NCBI RefSeq assembly: GCF_001584725.1
Contig: NZ_CP014606.1
Coordinates: 62,001-126,000 of the forward strand
DNA: 64,000 nt
From: an endosymbiont 'TC1' of Trimyema compressum
Lineage (GTDB): Bacteria > Bacillota > TC1
Direction of reading: 5' to 3'
Position numbers and translations under genes: made by a program. This document shows, piece by piece, positions 9,677 to 36,095 of the stretch; positions within the stretch are counted from its first letter, which is position 1, and each line of letters opens with the position of its first letter. The notes under the pieces were generated by a model. It was not told the origin of the DNA and searched no databases. It saw only the letters and a list, made by a program, of their open reading frames with translations.

Positions 9677-9731
9677 GTATTAAAACTATATTATAGTTGT
9701 AATAAATTTTTTAGCAAAAGGAGTGACTCAA

Positions 9732-10718
9732 TTGAAAAAGTGGTTAGGAATAGGAATATTAGTAATATTTTCATTGTTTGGGCTTGTAGCTTGTGGTGAT
9801 AGTAGCAGTGGTTCAGGAGATGGATTTAAGGTAGGCATGGCATTAACTGGTTCTAAAACCGATGGTGGATGGAACCAAAGCGGCTTATGAAGGGTTAGAA
9901 CCAAAGATAAGCTAGGTGCAGAAATTGTATTTAATGAAAATACACAACCATCTGATTATGAAAAGATTTTAAGAGACTATGCTAAAGAAGGTTGTACATT
10001 AGTAATTGGACATGGTTTTGAGTTTTCTGATGGAGCTAAAGTAGTAGCAGAGGAATATCCAGATGTGAAATTTGTTGCAACTAGTTCTCAGGTATCAAAT
10101 AATAAAAACCTAGGATCTATTGAAAATAATGCATGGGAAGCTGGATTCCTTCAAGGTGCTTTTGCGGCACTATTTTATGATGGAGAACCAGTTGGGACTG
10201 TTGGCGGACAAGAAATTCCACCAATTAAAAATTCAATGGTTGGTTATGAAGCAGGTGCAAAATACATTAAATCAGATATTAAAGTATTAAGTGCAACAAC
10301 GGGTAACTTTGATGATGCTAATAAAGTTAAAGAGCAATCATTATCAATGTTCCAACAAAGTGCAAGTATTTTAATGGTTAATGCGGATCATGCTGCACGT
10401 GGTTGCTATGAAGCTGCAAAAGAGAAAGGCAAATATGCTATTGGCTCTATTGCACCTTAGTATGAGCAATATCCAGAATCATTAATTGCGTGTGGTGAGG
10501 TTAATATGCCTAAAGCTATTTTCCAAGTAGCACAAGATGTTAAGGATGGAAAATTTAATGGTGAGTATTACTTGAAAGGTGTTGCAGATGACATTGTATC
10601 TTTAACCTACAATCCAGCTTTAGAATCAAAAGTTCCAGAAGCAGTTAAAACAAAAATCACAGAACTTACTAGTGAAATAAAAAGTGGTAAGTTAAAAGTT
10701 ATGGATTACATTAAGTAA
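9732..10718 (+). pseudogene. BMP-family substrate-binding lipoprotein, broken
   Basis: Membrane-anchored purine-nucleoside binding protein of the importer. TTG start at 9732 preceded by AAAGGAG. The signal peptide ends in a lipobox (LVACGDSSS). The mature part shows GMALTGSKTDGGWNQS, YPDVKFVATSS, GSIENNAWEAGFLQGA and YKP-type C-terminal elements, giving about 328 codons, normal for the family. Two lesions: a TGA at about 9888 lies in a short out-of-frame patch bounded by two compensating indels (about 9880-9905), and a TAG at 10458-10460 sits where relatives would have glutamine (IAP-stop-YEQYPES). It is the last gene before the terminator. Confidence 0.85.
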
Positions 10719-11299: not shown

Positions 11300-11945
11300 T
11301 TAATCAGGTACGTCAGTTAATGTCCAAATTAAGGTGGTTGAATAATCGAGGGGGATTGCATCACCTGGTGAAACAATAAGGGCTATATTATCTCCACAGA
11401 CCACGTTGCCTTCCATTGAAGCAGTCCTTCATCAGTACGTGGAGCTCTCACAACATTAGATGGCATACTGACATTGTTAATAAAAACATCTGCATATATA
11501 TTGGAATAAACTTTTGGTGGTGTTCCTGCAGATATTCCCGAAGTAATTTCTCCAGTTATTTGAGTCAAAGAACTCACCTTTTTCAGACATATATTACTGC
11601 CGCTTAAAGCATCTGCAAATACAGTATGTTGACCATCTGTATAATAAACTCTCATAGGAAGACTGGCTTGAACCGTAAATCTATATCCACTTGACACTCC
11701 TCGCTCATCGCTCACTCTTACATTACTATTAACCATTGAGTCAAGATAAGTATTAGTAACATAATGCCCGTTAAGCGAAATCGAACCAAAGTTAAAAACA
11801 CTTGGCACTTCAAGTAACTTTAAATCACCTTTAACAAATTTAGCTGTAATAATAGTGCTTTGACTTTGTGAACTAGCTGATATTACAGAAATTCCAAATG
11901 TAAAAACAATATCAAAGTTAAAATTGCTGACACTAATTTTTTCAT
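11300..11945 (-). pseudogene. WxL domain surface protein, frameshifted
   Basis: Cell-surface protein held non-covalently to peptidoglycan by a C-terminal WxL domain. ATG at 11945 follows GGAGGATTA. The signal sequence MKKLVSAILTLI breaks at residue 12 in a T-rich run, then resumes as FTFGISVISASS. The core carries LLEVPSVFNFG, DERGVSSGYRFTVQA (the first WxL-type motif) and LLQWKATW. A second frameshift near 11395 precedes the distal motif LIWTLTDVP, the defining WxL C-terminus, at 11300-11340. About 214 residues, the usual size. Sits 49 bases after the DUF916 gene on the same strand, the arrangement seen in enterococcal and lactobacillar WxL operons. Confidence 0.8.
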
Positions 11946-11993
11946 TATTAATCCTCCTATTTACTTGGTGTAAAAAGCATATTTATACTATTA

Positions 11994-12989
11994 TCACTTT
12001 CTATTTTCTTTATTCCTTCTATTTTTTATTAAAAAATATACTAAAATTACTAATGCAATGTTAAAAATAATATAAAGAAAAATTGAATAATCAGGAGGAT
12101 TAACAACGTTTGTAGTATCATCAGAGGTCTTTTGATCTACTGTAAAAGATAATTGTTTTTTCCAATCCTTATCTCCGATTTTCACTGTAACATCTACTAC
12201 ATAATTCCCTGGATCTATATTATTTTTTTTCCAATATATTGGTAAGTCAGCATTAGAATTTGGTGCCATAGCAATCTTAGAGCTTTCATCAGATTGCAAA
12301 ATTTCTGAGGATCCTGCCTTCTTAACTTCCGTTTTAAGAATCATATTATTTATTATTGAAGCTTCAGTATTTTGAACATTAATAGTAATTACTGGTATTC
12401 TTTTATATCTTGTAACACCTGCTTTATTAATAATAATATTAGGTTCAGGAGCTATATCATAGTTTAGTTTTACGCCTTTGATTAACGCACTTATATTATC
12501 TACTTGAGTTTTATTTGCTATATCATTTTTATTTTTTTTCTCTCTATATTGAATTCCACCTAGTATTATTCCTTTTTTTATGTCTTTCGGAATTTTTAAA
12601 TTGGCTGTAATTTTTTTTGTAGTTTTAGCTGGTAAACTTATTTCTTTTTCATTCAATTCCAGTATTGTGCTTAAAGGGTTTTGTAAGCTTACATCTAAAG
12701 GATATTTTGTAGGTGAATAATCAATTTCTCCATTCATTGTTGTCCAAGCATTTGTTATTTCACCTTCTAATTCTACATCAGCATCTTTGTTATTAACAAG
12801 CGTTACCTCAAGAACCTGACTCATTTCAGGCTGAATAGATAAATCAAAAAAAGTTTCATTAGTGTGAATTTGATTGCTAGGTAAGTTTGCTTCCATTGTC
12901 ATATATTCATCATCTGCTAGTATTTGACATGCACCAAATATAAAAGAAAAAAGAGCTATTATAGTTATAATACATATTTTTTTCAACAT
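11994..12989 (-). CDS. DUF916/DUF3324 WxL-associated membrane protein
   Basis: Accessory membrane protein of WxL loci; its first domain is annotated as a WxL-protein peptidoglycan-binding domain and the second as a host-binding domain. The 331-residue frame is intact. It has an N-terminal signal sequence with a possible lipobox (FGACQ), TFFDLSIQPEMSQVLEVTLVN, an ILGGIQY motif around residue 160, two immunoglobulin-like beta domains, and a C-terminal membrane helix (IFLYIIFNIALVILVYFLI) with a KNRRNKENRK tail. The start at 12989 is chosen for AAGGGGGATGGAAAT upstream. It is the only intact minus-strand gene of this locus. Confidence 0.85.
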   Translation of the reverse strand: MLKKICIITIIALFSFIFGACQILADDEYMTMEANLPSNQIHTNETFFDLSIQPEMSQVLEVTLVNNKDADVELEGEITNAWTTMNGEIDYSPTKYPLDVSLQNPLSTILELNEKEISLPAKTTKKITANLKIPKDIKKGIILGGIQYREKKNKNDIANKTQVDNISALIKGVKLNYDIAPEPNIIINKAGVTRYKRIPVITINVQNTEASIINNMILKTEVKKAGSSEILQSDESSKIAMAPNSNADLPIYWKKNNIDPGNYVVDVTVKIGDKDWKKQLSFTVDQKTSDDTTNVVNPPDYSIFLYIIFNIALVILVYFLIKNRRNKENRK

Positions 12990-13106
12990 ATTTCCATCCC
13001 CCTTACCAAAAACACTTGGGATAACTGTATCCACAATTACCCCAAGTTTAAAAAATCAATTATTTAAACAATAACAAGAACATTTACTAATGTCCATATC
13101 AAAATA

Positions 13107-13746
13107 TTATGGCACATCAGCTAATGACCATGTCAAAGTACATAAATAATCTCCGGCTTTTGCTTCTCCAGCTTTAACATTTAAAGTAATTTTATCTCCT
13201 GTCCAATTTGCAGCCCAACCCAAAAGACCTTGGTCACTCAAGTGGGATGTGGATAGAACTGTAGATGGAATAGCAACTCCTAAATTAAAATTATCAGCAT
13301 AAATTGTACCTGAACCATTAAATACTAATGGTTCAGTTCCTATACCAGCAGTTGTAGAATCTTGAACAAGTGTAGGCTTTATTAATTTTATATTACCTCC
13401 ATCTAATTCATCCAATATTATTGAATGTAGTTCATCTTCTTCATAAGATATCATTCCAGTGAGAGCTTGAACTGTTAATTTATAACCATTTATGCCACCT
13501 CTTTCATCCGTTACATGCGCTGTATAGGTGGTAGTATTTGGTAATGTTGCGCTACTAGCTTTTACTGCATTTACAAAAATATCTCCAAAAGCAAAAGAAT
13601 CAGGAACTTTATCTAATGTTAATAAAGAAGCAGGCTCTTCTGCCTTTAAAGAATTAGGCTGGAGTAAGTTTAAGTTAATAAATAATATAACTATTATTAA
13701 TAAATATAGAATATTTTTTTAATAGGGTTAGAATTTGACTTGTCAT
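13107..13746 (-). pseudogene. WxL domain surface protein, frameshifted signal peptide, shares inverted repeat
   Basis: WxL-anchored surface protein. ATG at 13746 follows AAGAAGG. The first eleven codons (MTSQILTLLKK) must shift frame in a seven-A run near 13715 to reach the hydrophobic segment ILYLLIIVILFINLNLLQ. The mature part then reads VPDSFAFGDIFVNAVKAS, DERGGINGYKLTVQAL and LLGWAANW, and ends in LTWSLADVP, a WxL C-terminus. From the FAFGDIF region to LCTL it is identical in DNA to the divergent gene at 14154-14810. Only the signal peptide half and the last eight codons differ. Confidence 0.8.
13135..13595 (+). repeat. Left arm of 461-bp perfect inverted repeat
   Basis: Reading both strands, 13135-13595 is the reverse complement of 14307-14767 with no difference that I could find. 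Arms lie inside the two divergent WxL genes and are separated by 711 bp carrying both gene starts. Sequence diverges abruptly outside both arm ends. Confidence 0.85.
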
Positions 13747-14153
13747 TATTTTACCTTCTTATTCATAAAATATTTTTTTGTTATTGTTATGTTTTTTAAT
13801 TGTATTCTATAAGGCGTTTGTTTGCCAATTCAATAATATTTTTATGATTAAAACATGTATCATAATACTTTTTAGTATAACTCATCTAAATATATTTTAG
13901 CATAAATAGCTTTATAAAAAACAGTATAAATGTATTATTTTTATTATAATACAAGGAAATTTCACTAAAAAAGCATTGACTTATTACTGCAATGACTATA
14001 CTATAAAATTAAAGAAATATATAAAATACTGAAAAATATTTTATAATAAAATAGCGAGCTACTACTGTTTAAGAAAAAGACTTCAATTACTCAAAATAAC
14101 ATTAGCGAAAAATGAAAACACATCGTGTATGTGACAGGAGAGAGATTTTTTAT

Positions 14154-14810
14154 ATGAAGAAAAAAGTTTTAATATTATTTGCAAGTTTACTAATATTAGG
14201 ATTTGCTTTGCCAGTTTCAGTATTTGCAGCAAACCTTACAGGAACAACACAAGTTACTGCAAAATTTAAAACAGGGGATTTAACATTGGACGCTATCCCT
14301 AGTGCATTTGCTTTTGGAGATATTTTTGTAAATGCAGTAAAAGCTAGTAGCGCAACATTACCAAATACTACCACCTATACAGCGCATGTAACGGATGAAA
14401 GAGGTGGCATAAATGGTTATAAATTAACAGTTCAAGCTCTCACTGGAATGATATCTTATGAAGAAGATGAACTACATTCAATAATATTGGATGAATTAGA
14501 TGGAGGTAATATAAAATTAATAAAGCCTACACTTGTTCAAGATTCTACAACTGCTGGTATAGGAACTGAACCATTAGTATTTAATGGTTCAGGTACAATT
14601 TATGCTGATAATTTTAATTTAGGAGTTGCTATTCCATCTACAGTTCTATCCACATCCCACTTGAGTGACCAAGGTCTTTTGGGTTGGGCTGCAAATTGGA
14701 CAGGAGATAAAATTACTTTAAATGTTAAAGCTGGAGAAGCAAAAGCCGGAGATTATTTATGTACTTTAGTATGGACGTTATCTGATGTACCTGCAGCAGT
14801 TGTAGTCTAG
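14154..14810 (+). CDS. WxL domain surface protein, intact
   Basis: Secreted 218-residue protein. The start at 14154 has a clear signal peptide (MKKKVLILFASLLILGF... ending VFA), preceded by ACAGGAGAGAG. The earlier in-frame ATG at 14112 would bury the signal. The mature chain has TAKFKTGDLTLDAIPSAFAFG, DERGGINGYKLTVQAL and the distal LVWTLSDVP, defining a WxL domain that binds the cell wall. It reads away from the minus-strand WxL operon and shares a 461-bp perfect repeat with the opposite gene. It is the only WxL gene of three without a frameshift. No terminator hairpin was seen between 14811 and 15050, which holds no gene. Confidence 0.85.
   Translation: MKKKVLILFASLLILGFALPVSVFAANLTGTTQVTAKFKTGDLTLDAIPSAFAFGDIFVNAVKASSATLPNTTTYTAHVTDERGGINGYKLTVQALTGMISYEEDELHSIILDELDGGNIKLIKPTLVQDSTTAGIGTEPLVFNGSGTIYADNFNLGVAIPSTVLSTSHLSDQGLLGWAANWTGDKITLNVKAGEAKAGDYLCTLVWTLSDVPAAVVV
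14307..14767 (-). repeat. Right arm of 461-bp perfect inverted repeat
   Basis: Reverse complement of 13135-13595. See the left arm. The arm covers codons from the FAFGDIF segment to the last few before the WxL C-terminus. Confidence 0.85.
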
Positions 14811-15054: not shown

Positions 15055-15928
15055 ATTAAACCACCTGTTCAATTCTAAATCGGACAGGTGGTTTTCCATT
15101 AAGTTTCCGAACAGGCCTAATATAATTAAAATAGTGAATTGTTTTAGCGACTACAGAGCGTAAATCATCTTCTAACCAATAACGGGGCGGAATTGAAAAC
15201 GCAAAACATCTTTAAACCTGCCAAAGAAACTTTCCGTAATGGCATTATCTTTTGGGTTATCGACTCTTGACATACTTTGAACAACATTATATTCTCTAAG
15301 CAAGGCTTGATAAGCTGATGAAGTGTATTGAATACCTTGGTCACGGTGTAAAAGGATAGGGTAATCAAGTACGCTTTGTTTTTCCAGAAACCTTTTTGCG
15401 GAGTCTAGAACAAATTTCATACCAAGAGAATCACTTAATTCCCATTCTATAATTTCATTGTTGAATAAATCTAAATAACAAATTAGATAGTAACATTTTC
15501 CTTTATGTTTAATATATGTAATATCTGAAACCACTTTTCTGAGAGAATCTAGTGTGTTAAATTTTCGATTTAAAATATTAGGATAAATACAGGTAACGGG
15601 CTTTACGTGTATATCCTCTAATATTGAGCCGCTTCATTGAACGCCACACAGACACATCACATACTTGCCAATCAACCTCTAATTCAAGTTTATCTCGCAG
15701 TTGTCGGTATCCCACATTGAAGGATAGTGGGTATGAATATTTTTAATATGAGCATCTAGCAATACTTGTGTTTTTCATACTGATTAGGTTCTCCTTCTGC
15801 TAATTATTGTTACTCCCATTTGTGGATGTTGCTTTCACTTATTCCAGTTTCTTTTGAGAGGTTTTTTCTAGATTCTCCTGACAAGTATCGCTTTACTATT
15901 GATAGCTTTTCTTCTTTACTGTGAATTT
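15055..15928 (-). mobile_element. Truncated IS3-family (IS150-like) element
   Basis: Transposase OrfB remnant reading leftward. VSDITYI (first Asp), HRDQGIQYTS (second Asp) and NAITESFFGRFK (Glu) give a complete DDE triad between 15165 and 15545. Upstream pieces to about 15640 match the HTH_21 part (KPVTCIYPNIL) in shifted frames. An OrfA N-terminus (SKIHSKEEKLSIVKRYLSGES) lies at about 15850-15925 and abuts the next IS, which seems to have inserted at its start codon. Near 15060-15093 an inverted repeat (ACCACCTGT/ACAGGTGGT) marks the distal end. Several frameshifts; inactive. Confidence 0.7.
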
Positions 15929-17193
15929 TGGATATATACTAAAAAAGTAGACAGGAAAAAGTGAAACATGTTTTAAATAAGTAGACACATAAGAAAGGAT
16001 AAAATTATGAATAATTACAAGAAATACGATGAAGAATTTAAAAAAAGTATTGTTAATTTACACCAAAACGGTAAAACTCAATCCCAACTTTCTAAAGAAT
16101 ATGGTGTCTCCATGTCTGCTTTACACAAGTGGATTAAACTTTATTCTCAGGTTAGAATTGATGATGATACTATTCTAACCGCTAAGCAGATTAAGGATCT
16201 TCAAAAGCGTAATGCTCGACTCTAGGAGGAAAATATCATTTTAAAAAAAGCAATTGCCATATTCACGCCTCACTCAGACAAAGATTAATGGCTGTTCATA
16301 CCCTTCGTTTTCAGCACGCTATCTCTTTTCTTTGTCATGTCCTTAAAGTGAACCGCAGCTCCTATTACAAATACTTTTCGGAAAAACTTTCTCCTAGAAC
16401 TATTGAGAATTAAAAACTCCGTCAGCTTATTCTCGGAGATTTGTCATCTTACTAAGAGACGTATTGGCCCATCTAAGATTAAGGCTCTTCTTTCCTATGA
16501 CTATGGCATCAACATCAGTATTGGTAGAGCGAGCCGCCTGATGACTGACATGAATCTTCCTAAAATGCCTACTATCAAACTTCGGTTTATTCATCCGAGG
16601 TCTATTCCCAATTTTGATTGCCCTAACTACCTAAATCAAAATTTTAATGTTCCTCAGCCCAATCAAGTCTGGGCTAGTGACATTACCTATATTAATTTAA
16701 ATGCCTCTTTTGCTTATCTCTGTGTTATTATGGATTTATTTTCTCGTAAAATTATTGCTTGGAAGCTCTCTCTTAAAATTGATACTTCTCTTGTTAAGGA
16801 TACTTTTATCAAAGCCTTTTATTCTCAAAAACCTTCTACTTCTCTTATTTTTCATTCTGACAGAGGTTCCTAATATACTTCTTTTATCTTTAGAAAGCTC
16901 CTTGATTCTTTTGGTATCATTCAATCTTTTTCTAAGCTTTCTCATCCTTGGGACAATGCTGTCGTTGAGTCCTTTTTAAATATATGAAAAAAGAAGAAAT
17001 TCTTCGTAGGTCTTTTTCTTCCTTTGCTCAAATTAAGCTTTCCTGCTTTGAACACATTGAGGGCTTCTACAACCCCCTATACGTCCCCACTCTGCTAATA
17101 ACATTCTTTCTCCTAATTCCAAAGAAGACTATTTTTTCACTTCTATTAAAACTTAATTTCACTTTTTCTATCTACTCTATTGACATTCTTCCA
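15929..17193 (+). mobile_element. IS3-family insertion sequence, copy 1 (1265 bp)
   Basis: Ends begin TGGATATATACT on the left and finish GACATTCTTCCA on the right; after a few bases both ends share the internal motif GTAGAnAGnAAAAAGTGAAA, consistent with terminal inverted repeats. It encodes OrfA and OrfB (see next entry). An inverted copy of equal length lies at 19469-20733; I found one difference, near the left tip. No target-site duplication is visible: the left flank ends GAATTT and the right flank starts GTAGCT. It interrupts a remnant IS on the left and a B-repeat surface gene on the right. Confidence 0.8.
16007..17160 (+). pseudogene. IS3-family transposase OrfA/OrfB, copy 1, with stops
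   Basis: OrfA (16007-16288) is a helix-turn-helix protein (YDEEFKKSIVNLHQNGKTQSQLSKEYGVS) with an in-frame TAG at 16223 just before EENIILKKA. OrfB starts at the overlapping ATG 16288. It contains VNRSSYYKY, then the DDE integrase: WASDITYI (D), HSDRGS (D), NAVVESFFKYMKKEE (E). OrfB has TAA at 16411, a frameshift at about 16435, TAA at 16871 inside HSDRGS-stop-YTS, and further shifts near 16980. The same lesions occur in copy 2, so they predate duplication. A functional transposase supplied elsewhere, or suppression, would be needed for movement. Confidence 0.8.
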
Positions 17194-17199
17194 GTAGCT

Positions 17200-18326
17200 T
17201 CATTTAAACTGTCTACTTCCTTTATATCCACACTGAAGTTTTCAACACTTAATTCATAGCCATGTTCTTCCCATTGGGTATATAAAATTACATAATTATT
17301 TGGCATCACTGTACTTGCAAAGTCCCATTTTATTCCACTTCCATCTTTTGCTGTATTACAACCGCTAAATGCATAACCCGTTTTGTGTAGTTATTACTTG
17401 GTAAATTTTGTTTAGCACCTTCCTTGAGGCTTAGAGGAGACATTATTCCTTCTCCTCCATTACTATCAAAATTTAGTTTGTTTTTCTCTCTTACATTAAC
17501 AAATGAAGTTATAGTACCAACTTTTTATTATTTCTGATATCCATAATATCTATAGATATTGTTTTTTCCAATAGTTGAAAAATCAACCGGTTGAACTACA
17601 TTAGCACTATAACCTTGCAACAAGGAAGTCACTAAGCTATTATCATCTGGAGCTGAATCACCTAAATAAATTGTATTGTTTACTGGCGAAGCAATCTTAA
17701 CCCAATCACAACCATCAATAAGATTCCCAGCAACATCACTATCATAAGGTTTTTTACTATAAGCCTTAAATTCAACTCTTGTTATAGAAAGTGACGGAGG
17801 TGTTGCAAAATACCCTTCATGATAAGTCAAATAACGTACAGTGCTATCAGCTATAAATTCAAATTGATTATCAATATCAAAAGCTTTATCACCATTTATT
17901 AAAGCGCCCGCATACTCCATCCCGCCATATCTTGCCCTATGCCAAAAAGACCATCTATACAAAGACCCTGAATCTGTTGAAAGATTTTGATACACAGATG
18001 CAGGAGAGTTAGCATTAAGTTCGCATATAAAACGACCATTATGAGACACTGCTCTATATAAAGGGGTTGCCCAAATCTCAATTTGATTATTTATATCAGT
18101 TGTTGACCAGCCAGGAACATCTTTTGGATCTAACATCCAACTAATTACCATTTGAACCATAATTTACATCATCAAAACCCTTATTTTGAAGCTCCGTTGG
18201 ATAAAGCATCACCTGTGCTCCTTGTATCCAGTTGTCAATCGATGTACAACAAAACATCAAAAAAACAACTAAAAATAATATTAATACCGGTCCAAAAAAT
18301 TTTTTCTTTGTATTCATTTTAATCAT
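17200..18326 (-). pseudogene. Secreted carbohydrate-binding-like protein with InlB B-repeat, truncated by IS
   Basis: ATG at 18326 (after AAGGAGTA) opens a signal sequence (FFGPVLILFLVVFLMFCC). After a frame change at about 18150 comes a beta-sandwich module with IEIWATPLYRAVSHNGRFICELNAN and SLYRWSFWHRARYGG, then VAGNLIDGCDWVKIASP. The main piece ends at 17528. Downstream fragments in other frames hold one InlB/Listeria-Bacteroides repeat (LNFDSNGG...KWDFASTVMPNN...LYTQW) before IS copy 1 cuts it at 17193. The module matches the gene at 34512. Probably a wall-exposed adhesin; dead here. Confidence 0.75.
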
Positions 18327-19421: not shown

Positions 19422-19468
19422 TATATAATGAAAAAAGGCGGTGAGAAAATGATAGAAGAATATACCTC

Positions 19469-20733
19469 TGGAAGAATGTCAATAGAGTAGATAGAAAAAG
19501 TGAAATTAAGTTTTAATAGAAGTGAAAAAATAGTCTTCTTTGGAATTAGGAGAAAGAATGTTATTAGCAGAGTGGGGACGTATAGGGGGTTGTAGAAGCC
19601 CTCAATGTGTTCAAAGCAGGAAAGCTTAATTTGAGCAAAGGAAGAAAAAGACCTACGAAGAATTTCTTCTTTTTTCATATATTTAAAAAGGACTCAACGA
19701 CAGCATTGTCCCAAGGATGAGAAAGCTTAGAAAAAGATTGAATGATACCAAAAGAATCAAGGAGCTTTCTAAAGATAAAAGAAGTATATTAGGAACCTCT
19801 GTCAGAATGAAAAATAAGAGAAGTAGAAGGTTTTTGAGAATAAAAGGCTTTGATAAAAGTATCCTTAACAAGAGAAGTATCAATTTTAAGAGAGAGCTTC
19901 CAAGCAATAATTTTACGAGAAAATAAATCCATAATAACACAGAGATAAGCAAAAGAGGCATTTAAATTAATATAGGTAATGTCACTAGCCCAGACTTGAT
20001 TGGGCTGAGGAACATTAAAATTTTGATTTAGGTAGTTAGGGCAATCAAAATTGGGAATAGACCTCGGATGAATAAACCGAAGTTTGATAGTAGGCATTTT
20101 AGGAAGATTCATGTCAGTCATCAGGCGGCTCGCTCTACCAATACTGATGTTGATGCCATAGTCATAGGAAAGAAGAGCCTTAATCTTAGATGGGCCAATA
20201 CGTCTCTTAGTAAGATGACAAATCTCCGAGAATAAGCTGACGGAGTTTTTAATTCTCAATAGTTCTAGGAGAAAGTTTTTCCGAAAAGTATTTGTAATAG
20301 GAGCTGCGGTTCACTTTAAGGACATGACAAAGAAAAGAGATAGCGTGCTGAAAACGAAGGGTATGAACAGCCATTAATCTTTGTCTGAGTGAGGCGTGAA
20401 TATGGCAATTGCTTTTTTTAAAATGATATTTTCCTCCTAGAGTCGAGCATTACGCTTTTGAAGATCCTTAATCTGCTTAGCGGTTAGAATAGTATCATCA
20501 TCAATTCTAACCTGAGAATAAAGTTTAATCCACTTGTGTAAAGCAGACATGGAGACACCATATTCTTTAGAAAGTTGGGATTGAGTTTTACCGTTTTGGT
20601 GTAAATTAACAATACTTTTTTTAAATTCTTCATCGTATTTCTTGTAATTATTCATAATTTTATCCTTTCTTATGTGTCTACTTATTTAAAACATGTTTCA
20701 CTTTTTCCTGTCTACTTTTTTAGTATATGTCCA
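19469..20733 (-). mobile_element. IS3-family insertion sequence, copy 2 (1265 bp), inverted
   Basis: Same length as copy 1 and seemingly identical apart from a T/C difference five bases from the OrfA-side tip. It reads leftward: OrfA 20655 to about 20374, OrfB from about 20374, with the same internal stops and frameshifts. Flanks (TACCTC left, AAACAA right) show no target duplication. With copy 1 it brackets 2.3 kb holding a surface-gene fragment and a decayed IS. A short frame with start (ATGAAAAAAGGCGG) at about 19429 runs into its left end, so it may have broken a gene there. Confidence 0.8.
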
Positions 20734-20845
20734 AAACAAAAACAATGGTATTCTTATTTATTAAAAAAACATAAAAAAGACAAAAAATTGGTGTAAAATG
20801 GTATTATAAATATAGCTAGTAGAATTTTTTGAGAGGAGATTAAGC

Positions 20846-29530: not shown

Positions 29531-31144
29531 ATGAAAGCACAAAAAGCTATATGTTGGTATTTACTGTCGCCTCTCTAGTGATGATAATAACGGCAACCAG
29601 GAAAGCATGAGTATTTCTAATCAACGCGATATGCTGCTTTCCTATATTCAAGAAAGGGGATGGCGTTTAAGAGACATCTACATCGACGACGGTTACTCCG
29701 GCACCACATTCGAGCGGCCAGATTTCATGCGCATGATTAGCGACATTGAAATGGGAAAACTCAACCTTGTCATTACGAAAGACCTGTCCCGTCTGGGCAA
29801 AAACTATGTAATGACCGGCCAGTATACAGACTTTTTCTTTCCGCAGTTTGGTGTCCGATATATAGCGGTGAATGAAGGTTATGACAGCCAAAATGCAGAC
29901 AACGACATAGCACCTTTTAAGAATATTCTCAATGAAATGTATGCGAAAGATATATCCAAAAAGGTGCTTTCTTCCCGCCAAACAAGTGCAAGGCAGGGCA
30001 AGTTCATGGGCAGTCAGCCGCCGCTAGGCTACATGCGAAGCCAAACAGATAAGCATCTGCTTGTCCCTGATGAAGATGCAGCCTCGATTGTTAAACGAGT
30101 ATTCAAAGACTTTGCAGACGGCGATAGCGGCAGACATATTGCCGACATCCTGAATAAAGAGGGATTTCCCTCACCGGCGGTATATCATTATGGCAAGAAA
30201 GGGAAAACGCATCCCAACCCAAAGGTCAGCAACACATGGGGGGGCAGCGCAACCATTCTGCAAATGATGAAGAACGAAGTCTATATCGGAAACACGGTAC
30301 AAAACAAACGCTCTGTGACTTCATTCAAAACCGGCAAGCGCCACCCCTGACAACCTCGGACGAATGGATTTGTGTACAAGGTACCCATGAGCCGCTTGTC
30401 GATATGGAAACATGGGAAGCAGTTCAGACGCGAATAAAAAAAGAATGTCCGCCGGAAGATTTACCACACAAGTGAAGTGAGTTTGTTTGCCGGAGTACTT
30501 AAATGTGCCGACTGCGGCAGCGCAATGACATTCAACACCAAACAAATGCGCGATAAGGTATACATGGTCTACAAATGCAGTAGCTATGTCAATCGCGGTA
30601 AAAATGTCTGTTCCATCCATTCGGTTGCGCTATCCCTGCTGGAAGATGTTGTTTTACAGGATATTAGGAATAACGCGAAGCTGGCAGCATCCGAGCAGGA
30701 AAAGTTGATAAAACGGTTGATGAAGTATGGTAACCGTGAGCAGGAAGAAAAACGGCTGGCACTAGAAAAGAGCTTATGTGAAGCAAAAGCCGGATTAAGG
30801 AGCTTGACAGATTAAGCAAAAAGCTTTTTGAGGAACGATGTTCCGAAAATGTGCCCGACCAGTATATTCAAGCGATTGATGTCTGATTACGAGAGAGAGC
30901 AACAAACCATGCAAGGCAGTGTCGGTGATTTACAGGCAAGCCTTGCGAAATGTTCAAGTTCAGAAAATGATGTGTCCCGTTGTGTGGACAGCATTAGCCA
31001 GTACACCGAGATACAATCCCTTACCCGTTCTGTAGTGGTCGAGTTGATAGACAGTATCTACGTTTCGGAAAGGTACGAAAAAACGGCGAAATACATCAGG
31101 ATATTCAAATAAACTACAAGTTCGCTGGCAGTATAAAACAATGA
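29531..31144 (+). pseudogene. Large serine recombinase (TndX/TnpX-like), frameshifted
   Basis: Site-specific recombinase expected to excise and integrate the element. The N-terminal catalytic domain has YCRLSSDDNNGNQESMSISNQ, the motif bearing the catalytic Ser in the preceding strand region (partly in a shifted frame near 29560), then YIDDGYSGTTFERPDF and ITKDLSRLGKNYVMTG. The recombinase domain has PPLGYMRS and NEVYIGNTVQ. The zinc-ribbon domain has CADCGSAMTF...YKCSSYVNRGKNVCSIHS. A coiled coil follows and the end IDSIYVSERYEKT...INYKFAGSIKQ is typical. Frame changes lie near 29565, 30345, 30474, 30800 and 30880-31090. It ends 33 bases before the right repeat. Confidence 0.85.
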
Positions 31145-34511: not shown

Positions 34512-36095
34512 ATGAAAGGAAATTTATTATCTACATTCAAAAAACTATACTATGTTTATTACTAGTTTTTATGTTGTTTACTAGCTTAATTTTTTTCAGA
34601 CTGATTCTTTAAAAGCAGAAAATATTCTTAATAATCAAACAGCAACTGTTCAGACAGAAACCGTAAATAATTTATTGCGAAATGGGGATTTTGATGAATG
34701 TAATTTTCAAGGAGTGAATCCTACCTTTGTAGTTAATGGGAAGTATGCTTGGACGGTTGATGTAATTAATACGTCAAATATCATTCCTTTGCGGAAAACC
34801 ACAGCTTCTGACAATCGAATGGAAATATGGGAAAGTAATTATATAGGTGTTCCTGCACATAGCGGGAAATACTTATGTGAAATCAATGCTTATATGTTTG
34901 CTTCTGTATATCAGGTTGTACCAATGACCGAAAATTCACTTTATAAATGGTCTTTTTGGCATAGAGGTAGAGCAGGAGCTGATACTGCTAGAGTTTGGAT
35001 AAATAGCGAAGAAAATAGTATGTGTGATGTTGCAGGAAATATGGATTTTACAGACAATAATAATGAATAGGGATACCATGAAGGCTATTTTAATGTTAAT
35101 GATTCTAATGAAATTAAGATTGGATTTAAAGCCTTTAAAACAACTAATAATCATCCTAGCATTGGTAACTTAATAGATGATTGTGGTTTAATCAAAATAG
35201 CATCACCAACAACTCAAACTATACATGTGGGGGGATCCAGTACCAGCGAGACATTAGTGTTTTTGAAGAAAATGGATTTAGAGCGGAAAAAGCAAATCCA
35301 GTGCCTGATTTTTCAACTACGGGAACAAAACGGGTAAATATGAATATTATTGATTCTTCAAATACAGTTGTTGGATATGTTGAATCAACAGTAAATGTAA
35401 TAGAAAGAGAACATACATTATCTTTCGATTTAAACGGTAGTAGCGGAATAGATCCAGATAATCAAGTAATTAAAACAGGAGACTTAGCTACTCCTGTACG
35501 TAATCCAATGAGAGAAGGCTATATATTTAATGACTGGAATACAACAGCAAATGGAAGTGGATTAGCATGGGATTTTGCAACAACAACTATGCCAAATTGT
35601 GATGTTACACTATATGCTCAATGGCAACAAAATAAGCATATAGTAAGCTTTAATGGAACAATAGGAGAAGGAACAATGGACCCTATTACCATTAATGAAG
35701 GCGAAACTCAAAATTTACCAAAAAATGAATTTATAAGTAATGATAACACATTTGTAGGCTGGGCAACAGAAGAGGGCGGAGTTGTAGAGTATGCAGATGA
35801 AGCCCTATTTACAATGGGAACAAATGATATTACTTTGTATGCTGTATGGGAAAAGATTGATCTAACATATACATTATCCTTTGATTTTAATGGAGGCTGT
35901 TGGGGAATGCCAGAAGATCAAATATTACATGAAGGAGAAAAAGCACAAGCAGTAAAAAATCCTTTCAGATTTTTTTATACATTCGAAGGCTGGAATACAG
36001 CAAAAGATGGAAGTGGAGAAAACTGGAAATTCAATAAAACAACAATGCCTGATCATAATGTAATACTATATGCCCAATGGCAATGTTGGTGGTAA
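34512..36095 (+). pseudogene. Secreted carbohydrate-binding-like protein with InlB B-repeats, broken
   Basis: ATG 34512 follows AAGAAGGACG. The signal peptide needs two frame corrections, at an A6 run (about 34540) and a T7 run (about 34592). The N-terminal module has NGDFDECNFQGVNP, MEIWESNYIGVPAHSGKYLCEINAY and SLYKWSFWHRGRAG, matching the gene at 17200-18326. A TAG at 35068 lies before GYHEGYF and a frameshift at about 35190 follows. Three B-repeats come next, each ending YAQW or YAVW (near 35620, 35850, 36085). Such repeats occur in surface adhesins of gut and oral Firmicutes. No LPXTG motif is visible. A decayed repeat at 36560-36695 shows the gene was once longer. Confidence 0.8.

Follow-up and report, generated by a model that had tools for sequence, protein, structure and literature searches.

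Two WxL surface genes, A and B, lie head to head in the window (the whole 64,000-nucleotide stretch of DNA that was analysed, from the endosymbiont 'TC1' of Trimyema compressum), and long identical inverted repeats inside them enclose promoter-like DNA (Table 1). The sequences indicate that A and B, which are oppositely oriented, are WxL paralogues that have diverged except in a homogenised core, and we put at about even the chance that homologous exchange between the two arms has inverted the spacer at least once in the past. As the pattern of identity shows, very recent homologous exchange between the cores of A and B has left the 461 bp identical, and in at least one case the exchange would have been a crossover, with inversion of the 711-bp spacer as its outcome. 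The inversion would have set the promoter and leader of a WxL operon on the outward-facing gene B, and a promoter and leader of the LRR type ahead of A and the WxLIP operon. The reverse flip would yield the arrangement found at the other two WxLIP loci of the genome. RecA-type homologous recombination is the likely agent, and a dedicated switch seems less likely than a rearrangement that happens now and then in an IS-rich, decaying surface region. The effect would fall on the promoter and signal peptide serving the WxLIP operon and not on the antigen.

The preliminary description had reported a perfect 461-bp inverted repeat, and direct comparison bears this out: 13135–13595 and 14307–14767 are reverse complements at all 461 positions, including 74 of 74 fourfold-degenerate sites. 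Divergence of the core is at most 0.65% (95% upper bound). Just two copies of the arm are present in the 1.62-Mb genome (two contigs). With its edges of lower identity the repeat extends to 512 nt and is 96% complementary (13111–13622 and 14280–14791). Beyond the core, identity falls to 65% for about 25 nt at each end (33 identities over 27 aligned nt next to the spacer plus 24 on the outer flank, 51 in all), against a chance level of 0.30 (binomial P ~3e-7). Since homology runs on past the arms at 65%, A and B are diverged paralogues, and at the divergence of the edges a run of 461 identical positions would be essentially impossible; perfect core and diverged edges together thus show very recent homogenisation of the core. 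The last eight codons had been placed outside the arms in both genes, which is right for A, whereas B continues for 13 codons after its arm. Both starts do lie in the spacer as had been stated (ATG at 13746 for A and at 14154 for B).

Table 1. Features of the inverted WxL gene pair and its neighbourhood, in window coordinates; positions prefixed C1 are elsewhere in the genome
Feature	Position	Strand	Details
WxL gene A	13107..13746	-	ATG 13746, open body 13718-13110; PF13731 49.9 bits
WxL gene B, intact, with WxL-type leader	14154..14810	+	PF13731 53.3 bits; from translation
Arm 1, identical core in WxL gene A	13135..13595	-	461/461, reverse complement of arm 2
Arm 2, identical core in WxL gene B	14307..14767	+	461/461; two genome copies in all
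Extended homology of A to B, with diverged edges	13111..13622	-	512 nt, 96%; edges 33/51
Extended homology of B to A, with diverged edges	14280..14791	+	512 nt, 96%; edges 33/51
Spacer (the part that a flip would invert), holding both leaders and promoter regions	13596..14306	.	711 bp
LRR-type promoter-leader module, A side	13636..13828	-	74% to C1:425309-425498; 75% to C1:1310960-1311101
WxL-operon-type promoter region, B side	13957..14050	+	77% to C1:1172294-1172386
Promoter-like TTGGCA-18-TACAAT for A	13799..13828	-	L031 relative has TTGACA-18-TACACT in the same place
Promoter-like TTGACT-17-TACTAT for B	13976..14004	+	conserved at C1:1172 kb
Terminator-like hairpin between A and WxLIP	13014..13047	-	sequence scan
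WxLIP gene downstream of A	11994..12989	-	PF06030 and PF11797 above cut-off
Frame-broken third WxL-like gene in the cluster	11350..11982	-	

The WxL domain PF13731 exceeds its curated cut-off of 25 bits in B and in the body of A (scores in Table 1), and a small WxL gene adjoins the WxLIP gene on the same strand, as in a WxL gene cluster. The picture of two divergent WxL genes is accurate for B, which encodes an intact small WxL protein whose signal peptide is in frame by inspection, and needs correction for A, whose own ribosome site and start do not lead into an intact frame. The leader of A, KNILYLLIIVILFINLNLLQPNSLKAEE, is unlike that of B and does not share the frame of its ribosome site and ATG, the break falling at an A7 run; the frame opened by the ATG reads MTSQILTLLKK and is off-frame relative to the body of A. 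There may be a single homopolymer error in this leader. A poly-A/Lys-Lys-Ala site is common to seven related signal-peptide leaders in the stretches read, three of these leaders being in frame and four out; among the latter, three are short by 1 nt and that of A by 2 nt. Two of the sites are in the window (13719–13746 on the minus strand, 34512–34550 on the plus strand) and five elsewhere (L031 7388–7420; L074 4340–4375, minus; L032 7043–7073, minus; L076 4075–4110; L033 6040–6074, minus). Frame variation at the leader poly-A could reflect decay at a hotspot, slippage or programmed frameshifting.

The two halves of the spacer were traced by searching the genome with it and aligning the matches, and by their relatives the A-side and B-side modules are of different ancestry. 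The B half matches 94 nt (77%) upstream of a WxL gene that is followed by WxLIP, at C1:1172294–1172386. The A half matches at 425.3 and 1311.0 kb of C1, in or near surface genes with the same type of leader; the gene at 425 kb encodes LRRs, and that at 1311 kb joins this leader to a different, IS-interrupted body. Promoter-like sites as a class are not enriched (15 against 13.7 in shuffles), so the case for the two promoters rests on conservation between loci and not on the scan.

Only three WxLIP loci are present in the genome. At the other two (C1:147 kb and C1:1171 kb) the WxL gene preceding WxLIP has a leader of the WxL type, while at the window locus that leader is on B, facing away, and the LRR-type leader is on A, before WxLIP. 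An in-silico flip of the spacer gives an in-frame gene composed of WxL leader, WxL body and A tail directly before WxLIP, and it is this result, together with the order at the other loci, that favours a past inversion. The comparison comprises two loci of the same genome, and it was the spacer search that singled out the modules before they were compared. The mismatch between module and operon is suggestive of a flip and is not proof of one, since the LRR-type leader on A could stem from a separate fusion. RecA is encoded and intact (544.8 bits), and 461 bp is ample for RecA-mediated exchange. As a separate observation, two further WxL-WxLIP-LRR loci of this genome span C1:146633–151300 (L034) and C1:1169700–1172400 (L033).

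The main rival to inversion is gene conversion only, in which WxL genes that were already opposed exchanged sequence with no crossover and no flip, and A received its LRR-type leader by a separate fusion. We regard this as possible, though on the doubtful side. It accounts for the perfect core and its sharp edges, explains the identity of the arms equally well, and, leader fusion included, needs no more events than inversion does. Comparison of the tails of A and B does not discriminate between the two readings, as the tails tie neither leader to either side of the operon. What gene conversion leaves unexplained is a promoter and leader of the WxL-operon type on a gene that faces away, unlike the arrangement at both other WxLIP loci. 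It is very improbable that part of one WxL gene was recently duplicated in inverted orientation, or that the repeat arose in assembly. Perfect identity would likewise be expected of a fresh copy or of a repeat collapsed and copied; against duplication, the homologous yet diverged edges on both sides indicate two older paralogues and not a fresh partial copy. Fold-back artefacts do not have arm flanks that differ on both sides, as they do here, and 1.6 kb should be within reach of an assembly in two contigs that resolves many IS copies of 1.27 kb.

A maintained, reversible switch, with repeated flips of the spacer and use of its orientations to alter expression of the WxLIP operon, appears unlikely. 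In its favour are the long perfect arms in one frame, the promoter-like modules in the spacer, the intact RecA and the surface location, and comparable cases are known (PMC5634654, PMC7858073). The swap of promoter and signal modules that the preliminary description proposed is structurally sound: both arms are in one reading frame, so the gene bodies stay in frame through a flip, and each module has its own relatives elsewhere in the genome. For the WxLIP operon, a different promoter and leader would be the plausible outcome of a flip, and even this effect could be limited by the hairpin that precedes WxLIP. Phase or antigenic variation, also proposed there, finds no support, because a flip keeps about 153 core codons and changes only N-terminal residues and the last 8–13 codons; the mature proteins would differ only at their ends, and the leader of A is off-frame. 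Because that leader is off-frame, one of the two protein products would be lost in either orientation, and the locus is decaying, both of which count against a maintained switch. So does the lack of a dedicated recombinase beside it: a search for a site-specific recombinase adjoining the locus found none, in line with the earlier remark, and the nearest candidate is a serine-recombinase-like ORF 15 kb off. This ORF (29535–30347, plus strand, 271 aa) carries PF00239 and PF07508 and is apparently short for a large serine recombinase. The locus also differs in construction from a site-specific inverton, having no adjacent invertase and repeats made of 461 bp of coding sequence. We would likewise give little credence to a homologous-recombination switch in which the gene cores act as arms around two modules, and a flip would rewire the promoter and signal peptide of WxLIP with the wall protein unchanged.

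We return to past inversion as the reading preferred here, and to its setting. The region around A and B looks decaying and IS-rich: ORFs of 150 aa or more occupy 41% of 22–53 kb versus 94% of 53–62 kb, and nine or more copies of the 1.27-kb IS, near-identical or partial, are present in the stretches sampled. Sequencing error on a wholesale scale is unlikely. The long core ORFs, rpoB among them, are intact, and about 31 kb of long ORFs contain 75 A/T runs of six or more with no frame break, a count that says little about the error rate as these ORFs were picked as intact. Stop-codon recoding, as an explanation of the many broken frames, found no support; rpoB and other core ORFs read through under the standard code. 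A search of the region after B gave only one match that stood out, 48 nt and perfect, perhaps an IS end. Elsewhere in the window, inverted IS copies at 15926–17194 and 19468–20736 (99.9% over 1269 nt) lie on either side of 2.3 kb, which they could invert; the same IS turns up in many of the genome stretches read. A lipoprotein-like gene at 9684–10715 (plus strand) follows an intact ABC transporter gene and is broken at 9888 and 10458. Another inverted repeat, 109 nt at 73%, joins 17268–17376 to 35975–36083, its second arm being within a gene for a List_Bact_rpt protein.

WxL proteins are rare in the phylum as sampled. Matches (E ≤ 0.001) occur in 3 of 399 sampled genomes, the present one included, and this rarity may point to horizontal gain. 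When B was searched in 101 genomes, its own was the sole match; no close relatives were present among the genome contigs, viral contigs and phages searched, and the plasmid search returned only WxL proteins at 31–36% identity.

If the flip is real, homologous exchange between inverted genes, already a source of rearrangement at other surface loci, would extend to a WxL cluster, and what is swapped would be promoter and leader, not antigen. If there was gene conversion only, in a decaying region, the locus is an instance of ordinary paralogue homogenisation. In the open-licence literature searched, no title or abstract reports a WxL inversion.

At the Campylobacter fetus sap locus a single promoter reportedly serves S-layer proteins of different sequence, in contrast to the window locus, where the mature proteins would be almost unchanged by a flip. 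The sap inversion itself is attributed to Dworkin and Blaser 1996 and Ray et al. 2000 in PMC4902306 and PMC5634654. The nearest mechanistic match is vpma of Mycoplasma agalactiae lacking Xer1, where exchange likewise takes place at a stretch common to two surface genes: recombination at a shared 38-bp sequence inverts the promoter and yields hybrid genes (PMC5634654). That system has 38 bp and one promoter and was seen in vivo, whereas the window locus has 461 bp and two promoter-like modules and is known from sequence alone. The slpA/slpB S-layer inversion of Lactobacillus acidophilus (Boot et al. 1996, as cited in PMC6015585 and PMC7858073) is similar in that two surface-protein genes lie on an invertible chromosomal segment and inversion switches the expressed gene. 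A 6-kb segment there exchanges an active for a silent S-layer gene; at the window locus the gene core is common and a flip would swap promoter-leader modules. In short-repeat invertons, too, the promoter DNA of surface genes is bracketed by inverted repeats, but these are typically 10–40 nt long and come with an invertase (PMC11892184), in contrast to 461-bp coding repeats with no adjacent invertase. As for WxL clusters themselves, they typically consist of a small WxL, a large WxL and WxLIP, according to an excerpt of PMC10599100, and a small WxL gene adjoins WxLIP at all three loci of the present genome too. That excerpt describes no inverted WxL pair, whereas here a second small WxL gene stands head to head with the first.
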